A stretch of DNA of 64,000 bases from Sphingomicrobium flavum (lineage in GTDB: Bacteria > Pseudomonadota > Alphaproteobacteria > Sphingomonadales > Sphingomonadaceae), in assembly GCF_024721605.1 (NCBI RefSeq), contig NZ_CP102630.1, positions 682,001-746,000 of the forward strand. The letters run 5' to 3'. The position numbers and the translations under genes are program-made. Numbering within the stretch: the first letter of the stretch is position 1; each line of letters opens with the position of its first letter. Under the pieces are notes generated by a model. The model ran no database searches. It was not told the origin of the DNA and saw nothing but the letters and a program-made list of their open reading frames with translations. Shown here piece by piece: positions 2,673 through 25,792 of the stretch.

Positions 2673-5600
2673 ATGGTCTATGTCCCGCTGCGCATCTTTT
2701 CCTCCTTCACCATGCTGGAAGGGGCGATCGAGCCCAAGGCCATTGCGTCTCTCGCCAAGGAACTGAATTTCCCCGCCGTCGGCGTTGCCGATCGCAACGG
2801 GCTTTATGGCGCGATGGGCTTTTCCGATGCCTGCATCAGGGAAGGCGTGCAGCCAATCATCGGCACGCTGCTGGGCGTCAAACGGCCTACGGGGATGGGG
2901 CAGGGGGACGAGATGGATTGGCTCGCCCTCTATGCGCAGGACGAGGCGGGCTATGACAATCTGTGCAAGCTGGTTTCCGCCGCACATTTGGATCGCCCAG
3001 TCCATGATGTGCCGCACGTCACGCTCGATTTCCTGTTCCAGCATAATATCGGGCTGATCGCACTGAGTGCAGGCAGCGAAGGCGCGATTGCGCGCCTCTA
3101 TGCCGATGGCCAGGCCGACAAGGCGGGCGACTATGCGCGCAAGGTGGCTGCCGCTTTCGAAGGCTGCTTCTATATCGAGCTGTCGCGCCGCGGCGATCCG
3201 ATCGAGGAAGCGGCTGAGGAAGCACTAATCGACCTCGCTTACGCCGAGGGCTGGCCACTGGTCGCGACCAATCCCGCGCAATACGACAAGCCCGATTTCC
3301 ACGCCGCCCATGACACTATGCTGTGCATCGCCGGATCCACCTATGTCGAAAATGGCGACCGCAAGACGAGCTCGCCCGAAGCCTGGCTCAAGCCCGCTGC
3401 GATCATCGAACAACTGTTTGCCGACCTGCCCGAAGCCATCACCAATTCCGGCGTGATCGCACAGCGCTGCGCGGTGCGCAGTCCCAAGCGCCGCCCGATC
3501 CTGCCGACCATGTCGGCGGACGAGGATGACGCGCTCAAGAAGGCCGCGCATGAGGGGTTGGAAAAGCGCATCGCTGCCAAGGCGGAGGAAGAGAAAGCGC
3601 CCTATCGCAAACGGCTCGATTATGAGCTGGATATCATCGCGCGCATGGGCTTTTCAGGCTACTTCCTGATCGTTGCCGACTTCATCCAATGGGCCAAGGA
3701 TAATGACATTCCGGTGGGCCCGGGGCGCGGCTCGGGCGCAGGCAGTGCGGTCGCCTGGGCGCTGCTCATCACCGATCTCGATCCGCTCGAGCTCGACCTG
3801 CTGTTCGAACGCTTCTTGAACCCCGAACGCGTGTCGATGCCCGACTTCGACATCGATTTCTGCGAAACCCACCGCGACAAGGTCATCTCCTATGTGCAGG
3901 AGAAATATGGCCGGGATCGCGTGGCGCAGATCATCACTTTTGGGCGCTTGAAGGCGCGCGCCGTCCTCAAGGATACAGGCCGCGTGCTGCAGATGAGCTA
4001 TGGCCAGGTCGATCGCCTCGCCAAGCTGGTGCCCAACCTGCCTGCCGATCCGTGGGACCTGAAACGCGCATTGAACGGCGTGTCCGAACTCGCCGCCGAA
4101 GTGAAGAACGATCCCGAGGTCAGGAAGCTGTACGAACTGGCGATGAAGCTGGAAGGCCTGCCGCGCCACAGCTCGACCCACGCCGCGGGCGTGGTGATCG
4201 GCGATCGCCCGCTCGACCAGCTCGTCCCGCTCTACCGCGATCCGCGTTCCGACATGCCGGTGACCCAGTTCGACATGAAGCATGTCGAGCAGGCCGGGCT
4301 GGTGAAATTCGACTTTCTTGGCTTGAAGACGCTGTCCGTCCTCAAGGAAGGCCAGCGCCTCCTCAAAAAGCGCGGGATCGAACTGGATTATAGCGCGCTC
4401 CCCTGGGACGACGAGCAGGTCTATGCCCTGATGCAGCGCGGCGACACGGTCGGCGTCTTCCAGCTGGAATCCGAAGGCATGCGCCGCACGCTGGCCGCCG
4501 TCCGCCCCACCAGCTTTGGCGACATCATCGCGCTCGTCTCGCTCTATCGCCCCGGTCCGATGGACAATATCCCGCTGTTCGGCGACCGCAAGAATGGCCG
4601 CGCCGACCTGGCCTATCCGCACCCCATGCTCGAGGATGTGCTGAAGGAAACCTACGGCATCTTCGTCTACCAGGAACAGGTGATGCAGGCCGCGCAGGTG
4701 CTGGCCGGATACAGCCTTGGCGATGCAGATTTGCTGCGCCGCGCCATGGGCAAGAAGATCCAAAAGGAAATGGATGCGCAGCGCGAACGCTTCGTCTCCG
4801 GCGCGGCGAAGAATGGTATCCCTGCGCAAAAGGCCAACGAACTGTTCGACTTGATCGACAAGTTCGCAGGCTATGGCTTCAACAAATCGCACGCTGCAGC
4901 TTACGCGCTGGTCGCCTATCACACGGCTTATCTGAAGGCGCATTATCCCGCAGAATTCTACGCCGCTTCAATGTCTTACGATATGAACCTCACCGACAAG
5001 CTCGGCCATTTCGTGGAGGATGCGCGGCGTTCGGGTGTCGAGGTGCTGCCCCCCGATATCAACCATGCCTGCGCCGATTTTGACGTGCAGGACGGTAAGG
5101 TCCGCTATGCCTTGGGGGCGCTGAAAGGCGTCGGCGAAAAGGCGATGGACCTGCTGGTTGAAGAGCGCACGGCCAATGGCCCGTTCGACAGCCTTGAAGA
5201 TTTCGCCGGTCGGATCGATCCCAAATGGCTCAACCGTCGACAGCTGGAGGGGCTGGCAGCCGCGGGCAGCTTCGATGCCATCAATGACGACCGCGCCAGC
5301 GTGCATGCGGGGGCGGAGACCATCTTGCGCCATGCCCAACAGGCCGCAGGCGAACGCGAAAGCGGGCAGGTTGCTTTGTTCGGTGGGGATGACAGCGCCG
5401 ATATCGCCACCATCCGCCTGCCGCAGGCACAATGGACGGTGGCCGAGCGGATGACCGCGGAAAAGGACGCCTTCGGCTTCTATTTCTCCGCACACCCTGT
5501 GGACGCGCAGCGGCATCTGCTCGCCGCGCACAAGGTCAAGCAGTTTGGCGAACTGGGCGCCATGCCCGCCGCTGCTGAGGGAGCACGCACACAGACAATG

Positions 5601-6119
5601 ATGGCCGGGATGGTCGAGGAAGCGCGTTGGCGCACCTCGCAGCGCGGTCGCCGCTACATGATGGCGACGCTGAGCGACCCGTCCGGCCAGTTCACCGCCA
5701 TGGCCTTTGACGACATGGCCTGCGAAGCCGTGGAGGAAGCCGCCAAATCAGGCGAATGCGGCCTCATCACCGCCGAACTGGATCGCAAGCCGGGCGAAGA
5801 AGAACCGCGCGTCACCATCAAACATTTCAAGCCCCTATCGCAGATCGCGGAGACGCAGCGGCTGAAGCTGGATATCCGACTGGTCGATGCTGCGGCATTG
5901 CCGCTCATCGCCGAAGTGCTGGAGCGCGGGGGCAGGGGCGTGGTGCGGATCACGGTGCCGATCGATGGCCGCCGCGATGCAATGCTGCTCATCGGACGCG
6001 ATTTCATCCTCGATGCCGATGTCGCCGACAAATTGACGCGCCTGCTCGGCGAGGATGCGGTCGAACTGGGGGCCGACACGCCGGCAAGACCGACGCTGGC
6101 CTACTCCGCCGCGGGCTGA
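2673..6119 (+). CDS. dnaE: DNA polymerase III alpha subunit
   Basis: This is the replicative polymerase subunit, 1148 residues if started at ATG 2673. The N-terminus YVPLRIFSSFTMLEGA opens the PHP domain. The polymerase core holds GPGRGSGAGS and MPDFDIDF, with catalytic-type aspartates at about residues 391 and 393. HSSTHAAGVVI, GVFQLES and GYGFNKSHAAAYA follow, and an OB-fold region lies near the C-terminus. A GTG at 2664 is an alternative start adding three residues; neither has a strong ribosome site. The length and motif order are those of DnaE1, not the mutagenic DnaE2. The last 19 bases overlap the convergent mtgA gene. Confidence 0.97.
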   Translation: MVYVPLRIFSSFTMLEGAIEPKAIASLAKELNFPAVGVADRNGLYGAMGFSDACIREGVQPIIGTLLGVKRPTGMGQGDEMDWLALYAQDEAGYDNLCKLVSAAHLDRPVHDVPHVTLDFLFQHNIGLIALSAGSEGAIARLYADGQADKAGDYARKVAAAFEGCFYIELSRRGDPIEEAAEEALIDLAYAEGWPLVATNPAQYDKPDFHAAHDTMLCIAGSTYVENGDRKTSSPEAWLKPAAIIEQLFADLPEAITNSGVIAQRCAVRSPKRRPILPTMSADEDDALKKAAHEGLEKRIAAKAEEEKAPYRKRLDYELDIIARMGFSGYFLIVADFIQWAKDNDIPVGPGRGSGAGSAVAWALLITDLDPLELDLLFERFLNPERVSMPDFDIDFCETHRDKVISYVQEKYGRDRVAQIITFGRLKARAVLKDTGRVLQMSYGQVDRLAKLVPNLPADPWDLKRALNGVSELAAEVKNDPEVRKLYELAMKLEGLPRHSSTHAAGVVIGDRPLDQLVPLYRDPRSDMPVTQFDMKHVEQAGLVKFDFLGLKTLSVLKEGQRLLKKRGIELDYSALPWDDEQVYALMQRGDTVGVFQLESEGMRRTLAAVRPTSFGDIIALVSLYRPGPMDNIPLFGDRKNGRADLAYPHPMLEDVLKETYGIFVYQEQVMQAAQVLAGYSLGDADLLRRAMGKKIQKEMDAQRERFVSGAAKNGIPAQKANELFDLIDKFAGYGFNKSHAAAYALVAYHTAYLKAHYPAEFYAASMSYDMNLTDKLGHFVEDARRSGVEVLPPDINHACADFDVQDGKVRYALGALKGVGEKAMDLLVEERTANGPFDSLEDFAGRIDPKWLNRRQLEGLAAAGSFDAINDDRASVHAGAETILRHAQQAAGERESGQVALFGGDDSADIATIRLPQAQWTVAERMTAEKDAFGFYFSAHPVDAQRHLLAAHKVKQFGELGAMPAAAEGARTQTMMAGMVEEARWRTSQRGRRYMMATLSDPSGQFTAMAFDDMACEAVEEAAKSGECGLITAELDRKPGEEEPRVTIKHFKPLSQIAETQRLKLDIRLVDAAALPLIAEVLERGGRGVVRITVPIDGRRDAMLLIGRDFILDADVADKLTRLLGEDAVELGADTPARPTLAYSAAG

Positions 6120-23137: not shown

Positions 23138-23737
23138 CTAGGCGTGACGCTCGATCCACCTTATCGCAAGATCGCAAAGACTGCCCGCGGGAAAGCCGAA
23201 GCCACCCGAAGAGCCGCGCGCCTTGGCAGCTTCGCATGCTTCCAACGCTTCGCTGGAGCGCCCGGCGAGGATCAGCGCCGGTACCAAGGCGGAAAGATAG
23301 CTGTCTGCGTCGGCGCCGTGCATGCGGCACGATGTGATGAAGTCCTCCATCGACCAAAGCTCCAGATCGTTGAGCGCACGATCTGCCAGGTCGCACAGAC
23401 GCACTGCCACGGCCTCGGCATTCTCGACCTCCTCAATGCCGGATTCGCGGAATGCGGGTGCCCGGCAGCTGAACGCCCCGGTGAGGCGGAAGGAGAGCGG
23501 CTGTTGCCTGTTTTCGGGCAGCCCGACGATGTCCCAGAAAAGCGGGTCGATCGTCATCGGCTTGACCTGTATGACCCCGCGAGACGAGGTGTTGTTGAGC
23601 GCGACAACCGGCGAAGCGCTGACGAACCAGTCGCCGGATTGCCGGTAAAAGCATCCTTGTGTCGAGCGCCACCTGCTGCCCTTGCCGGCCGACCGAACGG
23701 CCTTTGCCACGTCACGTCGAAAATGGGTTCGTGTCAA
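23138..23737 (-). CDS. Conserved-looking protein of unknown function, TTG start
   Basis: This frame of 199 residues was not recognised. TTG 23737 has GAGGAG seven bases upstream, which decides it over TTG 23755. The N-terminal half is strand-rich, with TQGCFYRQSGDWFVSASPVV, then VIQVKPMTIDPLFWDIVGL and PLSFRLTGAFSC; it vaguely recalls DUF4304-type proteins. The C-terminal half is helical and TPR-like (SALVPALILAGRSSEALEACE). No signal peptide or membrane segment is seen. It is expected to be cytoplasmic. It lies 35 bases before the purN stop on the same strand, so it may be read with the purMN transcript. Confidence 0.62.
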   Translation of the reverse strand: MTRTHFRRDVAKAVRSAGKGSRWRSTQGCFYRQSGDWFVSASPVVALNNTSSRGVIQVKPMTIDPLFWDIVGLPENRQQPLSFRLTGAFSCRAPAFRESGIEEVENAEAVAVRLCDLADRALNDLELWSMEDFITSCRMHGADADSYLSALVPALILAGRSSEALEACEAAKARGSSGGFGFPAGSLCDLAIRWIERHA

Positions 23738-23772
23738 AGCCCGTCTCCTCGGCAACGCCTCGTTTCAAGCCG

Positions 23773-24732
23773 CTAGAATTCCGCCGCCACCTTGTGCAAT
23801 TTCGCCAGCCGCGCCGGCGCGCATTCCAGCCAGCTTCGCTGCAGCCATTGGTGGACATGATCCCAGTCGGTATCGGGGCGATCCAGCCGGATGCCGATCC
23901 AGTTGGACGGGCCATAATATTGCGGGCGGAAATAAAGGTCGCCATCGGCCTCGATCAGCTGCGCCATTTCCTCCTGCCCGCTGCATTTGACCAGCAGGCC
24001 CACGCTTTCCTCGCCATGATGGCGCATCCACATGATGGCGAAGAATTTGCCCGACGATGGGGACCCGACGCGCCAGGCCGGGGCGCCATGGCTGGTCTTG
24101 TACATGGTTTCGGGCAGGGCCAGCGCGCGCCGCCCGACTTCCTCGCTGATCCAGTCGGGATCGAGCGCGCGGCCGAGATAGTCGCTCAGCACGCGAGGGT
24201 AGAGCTGATGTTCAGCGATCAATACGCGTTCGGCGAGGCTGTCGGCGCTGTCGCCGGGCATGATGGCGACTTCGACCTGTCCCAACACCTCGCCCGAATC
24301 CAGTTCGGGGATGACCATATGCACCGTCGCCCCGGTCACAGCATCGCCGGCATCGAGCGCCGCCTGATGCGTGCCAACACCCTTATATTTGGGCAGCAGC
24401 GAGGGGTGGATGTTGACGATCCGCCCGTCCCAGCGGCTGATGAAATCATCGGGGATGATCCGCATGAAGCCCGCCAGCGCGATCATCTCGACCTTGTGGG
24501 CGCGCAGCGTCTCGTCCAGTTTTTCCCAGAAATCCTTGGCCTTGCCATCAAGCTTGGCGGTCGTTACGCCCTCGGCCTCGGCCAGCGCCAGTCCCGCCGC
24601 ATTGGGCTTGTTGCCCGTCACCAACACCGGCTCATAAGGGCAATCCTCGGCCCGCGAGGCGTAGATCAGCGCGGCCATGTTCGACCCGCGCCCCGAAATC
24701 AGGATGGCAAGGCGGGTGCGCCTAGCCGTCAT
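23773..24732 (-). CDS. purN: Phosphoribosylglycinamide formyltransferase fused to an MmcQ/YjbR domain
   Basis: This is a 319-residue protein in two parts. Residues 1 to about 195 are Pur[25 protein letters not shown], the catalytic Asn-His-Asp set in [12 protein letters not shown] and AGATVHMV-type sequence with LDSGEVLGQ. PurN transfers formyl from 10-formyl-tetrahydrofolate to glycinamide ribotide. Residues from about 200 carry an MmcQ/YjbR (CyaY-like) DNA-binding-type domain: [46 protein letters not shown]. coli PurN has 212 residues, so the tail is a fusion. The start overlaps the purM stop by 11 bases. The role of the second domain is unknown. Confidence 0.9.
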
Positions 24733-25792
24733 GGCTCGCCGACCAGCCCTCTCCGCTGACGGTGCAGCCGCGCGTGCCGGCTTCAATCATACCAATCCGC
24801 ATCGGTGCTTCGCCGGCCTGCGTGAGCGCGTCCATCACCGCATCGACCATCTCGGCCTTTACCAGGGCAACCATGCCGATCCCGCAATTGAAAGTGCGCA
24901 CCATCTCGCCATTGGCGACATCGCCGCCCTCGCGCAGCATGGCGAACAGCGGCGGCAGTTCCAGCGCCGACACATCGACGATCGCGCGCACGCCCTCGGG
25001 CAGGATGCGCGGCAGATTTTCCAGAAGGCCACCGCCCGTAATATGTGCCAGCGCCTTGATGTCGCCCGCGCGCACCAGCGGCAGCAAAGATTTTACATAA
25101 ATCCGCGTCGGCTCAAGCAGCGCTTCGCCCAGCGTCTTGCCGGCATCGTAGGGCAGGGGATCGCTCAACGCCCAGCCATTGCGCTCGATGATCCGCCGCA
25201 CCAGCGAAAAGCCGTTCGAATGCACGCCCGAACTGGCCAGCCCGATCAGCACGTCGCCGGCTTGCGCCTCCACGCCGATCAATGCATTGGCCCGGTCCAC
25301 CGCGCCGACGCAGAAACCGGCAAGGTCATAATCGCCTTCGCCATACATGCCCGGCATTTCCGCCGTTTCGCCGCCAATCAGCGCGCAGCCGGCCTGGCGG
25401 CAGCCATCGGCGATCGAGGCCACCACTTTGGCCGCGACATCATTGTCGAGTTTGCCGGTGGCGTAATAATCTAGGAAGAAAAGCGGCTCGGCGCCCTGGA
25501 CGATCAAGTCATTGACGCACATCGCGACCAGGTCGATGCCGACCCCGTCATGGCGCCCCGCCTCGATTGCCAGCTTCAACTTGGTGCCCACGCCATCATT
25601 GGCCGCGACCAGTAACGGGTCTTCATAACCCGCAGCCTTCAAGTCGAAAAATCCCCCGAATCCGCCCAATTCGGCGTTGGCGCCAGGGCGCGCGGTGGAT
25701 TTGGCGAGCGGGCCGATGGTTTTCACCAGCGCATTCCCGGCATCGATGGAGACGCCGGCTTCGGCGTAGGTCAGGCCCTTCTTTTCGCTCAT
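24722..25792 (-). CDS. purM: Phosphoribosylformylglycinamidine cyclo-ligase
   Basis: This is a 356-residue enzyme of purine synthesis from ATG 25792 ([20 protein letters not shown]). It shows the ATP- and substrate-binding patterns [49 protein letters not shown] and [15 protein letters not shown]. It makes aminoimidazole ribotide from FGAM. The frame stays open upstream but loses all likeness. It overlaps purN by 11 bases, and the pair is co-transcribed as in many bacteria. The DUF2066-like gene starts 65 bases away in the other direction, so promoters lie in that short gap. Confidence 0.96.

Follow-up and report, generated by a model that had tools for sequence, protein, structure and literature searches.

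We analysed a 64,000-nucleotide stretch of the Sphingomicrobium flavum genome (hereafter the window), in which a gene on the reverse strand joins the purine-synthesis enzyme PurN to a domain of MmcQ/YjbR type (Table 1). The 319-aa open reading frame has no internal stop, and its start overlaps the 3' end of purM by 11 nt. Its PurN and YjbR parts are similar in G+C content (0.634 and 0.641; window 0.632), so by that measure the tail is no recent foreign piece. The preliminary description of this DNA had read both domains as one frame without a stop, and this reading is borne out by the open frame here and by the survey below, where 85 of the family's 143 classified genomes carry the same fusion. 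A 205-aa ORF directly downstream of the fusion (23138-23755, reverse strand) has no Pfam match and may be no gene.

Table 1. Features of the purN–yjbR locus, in positions of the window.
Feature	Position	Strand	Remarks
Fused purN–yjbR coding sequence	23773..24732	(-)	319 aa plus stop; ATG at 24732, stop TAG 23773-23775
PurN (formyl transferase) domain, residues 7-182	24187..24714	(-)	PF00551, E 1.4e-48; TIGR00639 above cut-off
Span with N107, H109 and D145	24298..24414	(-)	Presumed PurN catalytic Asn/His/Asp; conserved in alignments
Junction, residues 183-191	24160..24186	(-)	AlphaFold2 model: PurN helix, then YjbR helix
YjbR/MmcQ-fold domain, residues 192-317	23782..24159	(-)	PF04237 match; fold matches 2a1v, 3h9x and 2fki
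SHG motif, S214 H215 G216	24085..24093	(-)	Every residue in at least 90% of aligned fused proteins
HHG motif, H238 H239 G240	24013..24021	(-)	Every residue in at least 90% of aligned fused proteins
purM (AIR synthase), upstream gene	24722..25792	(-)	PF00586 and PF02769; 356 aa, start assumed

The domain search proposed in the preliminary description matched both PF00551 (E 1.4e-48) and PF04237 (E 2.3e-12; residues 204-301, 47.8 bits against a Pfam gathering cut-off of 30.1). The NCBIfam PurN model (TIGR00639) matches residues 7-185 with 177.4 bits, above its curated cut-off of 150.1, and the whole catalytic core resembles solved PurN enzymes (e.g. 4ds3, 1meo and E. coli 2gar) with E-values down to 8e-45. 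Residues N107, H109 and D145, which we take to be the catalytic Asn, His and Asp of PurN (106, 108 and 144 in E. coli numbering), are invariant in 127 aligned fused proteins and identical in the 4ds3 and human chains. The PurN score and these residues suggest that the enzyme part works as PurN, and purM lies directly upstream, as in other PurN systems. Unlike those PurN enzymes, the sphingomonad protein lacks the usual C-terminal tail and passes instead into the YjbR domain, with a spacing of 5-9 residues between both domain profiles in 134/134 fused proteins.

An AlphaFold2 model of the whole chain, built with the 127 aligned fused proteins, has a pLDDT of 94.8 and a pTM of 0.85. In this model, the last PurN helix (residues 163-190) and the first YjbR helix (residues 192-204) form a nearly continuous helix. 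The preliminary description had given the tail as residues 200-319; its domain identity stands, while its start has to be moved back to about residue 192, where the modelled fold begins. The YjbR part modelled separately has a pLDDT of 89.2, and PF04237 (DUF419) structures rank first when it is compared with solved structures (Foldseek, VIA-align): DR2400 (2a1v, Z 13.4), PSPTO_3016 (3h9x, also solved as 2kfp; Z 12.0) and E. coli YjbR (2fki, Z 10.6). Weaker matches, ranking below YjbR, are frataxin-like proteins of the YdhG type (DUF1801; 9t2w, Z 7.5 and 2oc6, Z 7.3), the MotA DNA-binding domain (1kaf, Z 5.4) and Drosophila frataxin (7n9i, Z 4.0); frataxin/CyaY and YdhG have a related fold. A sequence-only search of the PDB found no YjbR chain. 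In brief, the protein is an ordinary PurN catalytic core with an MmcQ/YjbR-fold module replacing the usual C-terminal tail. In contrast to the solved MmcQ/YjbR proteins, the sphingomonad copy is joined to PurN, has the motifs SHG and HHG and is mostly acidic (isoelectric points were computed for this branch alone). Structures of YjbR/MmcQ proteins have been solved and, to our knowledge, no role has been settled for them.

The preliminary description regarded MmcQ/YjbR proteins as normally free-standing. This is only partly so, because fusions to EVE, DUF1831, TerB and GNAT domains are described in the part of PMC7641849 available to us, where EVE fusions are connected with genes of defence, signalling, transport and metabolism. 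The sphingomonad protein resembles these in having YjbR joined as a module, but its partner is a central purine enzyme rather than one of the partners named in that part of the paper. No report of a PurN–YjbR fusion was found among the matches listed in the openly licensed PubMed Central literature; on this literature search, PurN–YjbR appears to be a new domain architecture.

The distribution of the fusion was surveyed in 149 genomes of the family, presumably Sphingomonadaceae in the broad sense, of which 143 have a classifiable PurN region; G012 was left out for having no PurN match, and G022, G082, G097, G135 and G143 for weak or partial ones. Among the 143 classified genomes, 85 contain the fused gene, 14 contain a separate yjbR downstream of purN and in 44 no yjbR lies within 1.5 kb, so that purN and yjbR occur together, fused or separate, in 99/143. 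The fused frame being open in 85 genomes, neither chance nor a frameshift or sequencing artefact explains the fusion. Among the best 80 of 591 named loci, 42 are fused, 14 separate and 24 without yjbR, and 15 of the latter belong to other groups by their titles. The fused form is present in Novosphingobium, Sphingobium, Sphingopyxis, Erythrobacter, Qipengyuania, Sphingorhabdus, Polymorphobacter and Pacificimonas, while many Sphingomonas have separate genes. Two further draws, scored by per-genome best E-values, point to the same family: a full-length fused match is present in 82/113 family genomes and 0/83 genomes from other families in the order-level draw, and a fused match in 5/5 family genomes and 0/380 other genomes of the class in the class-level draw. 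The best E-values outside the family are 6e-68 (order) and 1e-77 (class), compared with 1e-139 or lower where the protein is fused. In eight non-family loci of the class draw (L332-L339), PurN is present and YjbR was not found.

Absence of the tail was also searched for with tblastn (E <1e-3), which found no YjbR beside purN in the 44 survey loci classified as having none or in 20 order-level outgroups. Among loci classified in this way, only three named Sphingomonas loci (L214, L219 and L229) gave a match, to a diverged YjbR; they are nevertheless counted as having none in the state counts and parsimony, whereas two weak copies (L211, 46 bits; L218, 28 bits) are counted as separate. In L214 (Sphingomonas desiccabilis), a shortened, diverged YjbR tail without SHG and HHG remains in the purN frame. 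No YjbR was found at E 1e-3 anywhere else in the genome in 39/44 tail-less genomes; of the remainder, G094 contains a strong copy and four others weak ones. In the S. flavum genome, the fused copy is the sole match in an alignment-based YjbR search; a search of the same genome with the PF04237 family model missed even the known domain and is unusable as evidence of absence.

The separate genes remain closely tied to purN in position. Of 30 separate yjbR loci, 19 have their start codon in 4 nt shared with the purN stop (ATG in 16, GTG in two and TTG in one), seven overlap purN by 11-32 nt, two begin 615-645 nt downstream on the same strand and two (L211 and L218) are the weak copies, without an overlapping start. 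With overlaps in 26/30 loci, small indels at the junction could convert the fused into the separate state and vice versa. On a tree of PurM and PurN (FastTree, 253 rows, 75/245 branches weak), the fused label changes 28 times, and 21 of these changes are forced by starred branches. Equal-cost parsimony places a single gain at the root of the clade that bears YjbR (214 tips), followed by 24 losses from the fused state, nine from the separate state (one of them comprising L214, L219 and L229, although these keep a diverged YjbR), three changes from fused to separate and one from separate to fused. The ancestral state is a near tie between fused and separate (cost 37 versus 38), and dearer splitting favours separate. 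This parsimony analysis suggests a single origin of the purN–yjbR unit in this family and some 24 losses from the fused state; since PurN is kept in these, the tail is dispensable for PurN. The fused gene of Sphingomonas sp. Leaf339 (L201) falls within a group of separate genes on the tree and could represent an independent re-fusion. Four loci within the separate-gene clade (L070, L086, L087 and L088) have a PurN with a longer, more ordinary-looking tail and no YjbR; these PurNs have possibly been replaced, or the tree is in error.

Where present, the YjbR part is mostly under purifying selection. Across 25 disjoint close pairs, YjbR has a median dN/dS of 0.16 and PurN one of 0.11, with YjbR the faster-evolving part in most pairs. 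The YjbR value is at or below 0.34 in 24 pairs and reaches 0.74 in the remaining one (L173/L198). In this Novosphingobium pair, the PurN parts are 86% identical and the YjbR parts 47%, which might reflect a replaced domain or a tail under relaxed constraint. Residues that vary little or not at all in the fused proteins include S214 H215 G216, K229, F231, H238 H239 G240, K249, E255, P270, W278, D289, W290 and W301, and some PurN positions vary less in fused than in tail-less proteins. SHG and HHG occur together in the purN-linked branch, in two YjbR copies that do not adjoin purN (L154 and L320) and in L323, and are missing from most other aligned YjbR homologues. L323 (genome G812, ORF 1327-2283), from another class of the same phylum, has tandem YjbR domains in one 319-aa frame, the first of which carries the motifs. 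A sphingomonad-like YjbR with SHG and HHG (151 bits) is also present outside the family in L340 (genome G907, frame 5343-5735, forward strand); its frame opens directly past the stop of a gene that, read by eye, resembles a sensor histidine kinase of hybrid type; within 12 kb, no PurN match was found. A Nonomuraea copy contains SHG and a run of His, and Streptomyces and Tsukamurella copies are without the SHG/HHG pair. No repeated partner gene was noticed beside free-standing YjbR in a non-systematic look at a few loci. The YjbR part is mostly acidic, with a median pI of 5.9 in 133 fused proteins and 5.5 in 28 separate ones.

We also compared the evolution of both parts. PurN and YjbR distances correlate beyond those of PurM, with a partial r of 0.26 in 129 fused and 0.24 in 27 separate cases; 0/500 permutations were as high in each set, although permuting also destroys shared ancestry, and the PurM control may leave some shared ancestry in the correlation. 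Covariation gives no such signal: the 100 strongest covarying pairs include no inter-domain pair, versus 48 expected by area (Neff 97).

PurT, an alternative, formate-based enzyme for the PurN step, is present in S. flavum. In the survey, it is above cut-off in 46/85 fused genomes (and absent in the other 39), 3/14 separate and 5/44 tail-less genomes. G012, which has no PurN match, contains PurT above cut-off and may rely on it alone, or its assembly (91% complete) may be incomplete. A Pagel-type test of YjbR and PurT (138 rows) gives LR 19.1 and p 0.0008, with 0/100 simulated nulls as high (highest 14.4), compared with LR 0.5 for a PurU control and LR 8.9 (p 0.06) for genome size; PhaC, above cut-off in 129/149 genomes, was dropped as a control. 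In 69 further family genomes, PurT is present in 27/45 fused and 9/24 not fused, but one genus (g91) supplies 12 of the latter, all without PurT, and outside it the count is 9/12. Forty of the 69 were added to the test, non-randomly: 20 were chosen by genus or for missing the fusion, and the other 20 are fused genomes chosen after their PurT state was known. With these 178 rows, the test gives LR 14.2 (p 0.007) and the fitted rate of PurT loss without YjbR falls from 1.2 to 0; because the fitted rates shift between both data sets, we claim no order of losses. Among the 40 added genomes themselves there is no association, PurT being present in 8/11 tail-less, 19/27 fused and 1/2 separate. Independent pairs are not significant before or after adding genomes (median p 0.375-0.5); with the added genomes, on average 4.2 of 20 pairs run in the same direction and 1.1 in the opposite one (median p 0.375). 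One PurT match under the cut-off (G299, 498.8 versus 502.15 bits) was scored as present. The correlation of YjbR retention with PurT is therefore a lead only.

The preliminary description took the fusion as a possible clue to the role of YjbR, and the family survey turns this into a real lead. For a functional link to PurN, such as the regulation or substrate channelling that it suggested, the evidence is divided. In favour of a link are retention of the unit in 99/143 genomes, the overlaps in 26/30 separate loci, the short junction and the correlation with PurT. Speaking against tight coupling, on the other hand, are the roughly 24 inferred tail losses, the lack of inter-domain pairs among the top 100, motifs away from purN and the missing PurT link in the 40 added genomes. 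We tentatively favour, by a small margin and at somewhat under an even chance, the view that the YjbR part acts with PurN as an accessory module, perhaps one that binds a ligand or a metal. An overlapping purN–yjbR pair would have given rise to the fusion, or the fusion to the pair. The YjbR part would bind a small ligand or metal, rather than DNA, through its SHG/HHG residues, and together with PurN it could adjust GAR formylation or hand something on. It might be useful in some conditions only, which would explain why the tail is lost while PurN is kept. Besides unit retention, overlaps, junction and PurT, the confident whole-chain model, the dN/dS values, the distance correlation and the acidic pI speak for an accessory module; the faster evolution of YjbR, the 39 fused genomes that lack PurT and the weakening of the PurT link on adding genomes speak against it, as do the losses, the 39/44 tail-less genomes without YjbR elsewhere and the lack of covariation.

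Nearly as likely is a co-expressed passenger, that is, a YjbR protein that acts alone on something unrelated to PurN; its gene would have lain behind purN with an overlapping start, and small indels would have joined or split the frames to no functional effect, with tethering tolerated but unnecessary. The 28 changes of the fused label over 253 rows, 21 of them forced, fit such a passenger, as do the lack of inter-domain covariation among the top 100 pairs and the SHG/HHG motifs in YjbR copies away from purN (L154 and L320). So does the absence of PurN near YjbR homologues outside the family, in 26/26 loci (L282-L307) and 11/11 loci (L320 and L322-L331), for which at most 1.5 kb of flank was scanned on each side, some shortened by contig ends. 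However, a mere passenger accords poorly with a unit intact in 99/143 classified genomes, with separate yjbR genes that mostly overlap purN, with the distance correlation beyond PurM and, weakly, with the PurT correlation. Alternatively, YjbR could merely take the place of the usual tail (about 30 residues), capping and stabilizing the end of PurN. Such a tail past the PurN profile is present in 19/20 order-level outgroup loci (six residues in L261), and fused PurNs run straight into YjbR. We consider a cap improbable: same-family PurNs without YjbR or a long tail are common, many having fewer than 12 extra residues, so neither is needed, and a mere cap would not call for motifs as conserved as those of YjbR.

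Least probable of all is that the YjbR ‘double wing’ brings PurN to DNA or RNA or serves as an autoregulator of pur genes. Its resemblance to the MotA DNA-binding domain (1kaf, Z 5.4), the annotation of one plasmid YjbR homologue as DNA-binding and the discussion of YjbR as DNA-binding in the part of PMC7641849 available to us point that way. Yet the MotA match is weaker than those to YjbR itself and to frataxin-like YdhG proteins, and pI exceeds 8 in only 7/133 fused and 0/28 separate YjbR parts. A DNA-binding label, the one usually given to the family, is doubtful here because the YjbR part is mostly acidic and carries SHG/HHG, which most other aligned YjbR homologues lack.

A more specific form of the accessory module, which we put forward as speculation and think unlikely, is that YjbR proteins of the SHG/HHG branch act as sensors of a metabolite or metal and throttle PurN, which a cell could afford mainly where PurT gives a second, formate-based route to the same step. 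If true, the fusion would point to what some YjbR proteins do, and purine synthesis would be shown to switch between two sources of one-carbon units.

Because the pairing seems to have been split or dropped many times, YjbR is best seen as an accessory part that could help to show the role of its fold. Its tie to a well-understood enzyme across most of the family offers a defined assay, namely GAR formylation with and without the tail, for which close relatives lacking the YjbR tail are natural controls. If a ligand or metal were found, this would give a biochemical function to part of the uncharacterized YjbR/MmcQ family.
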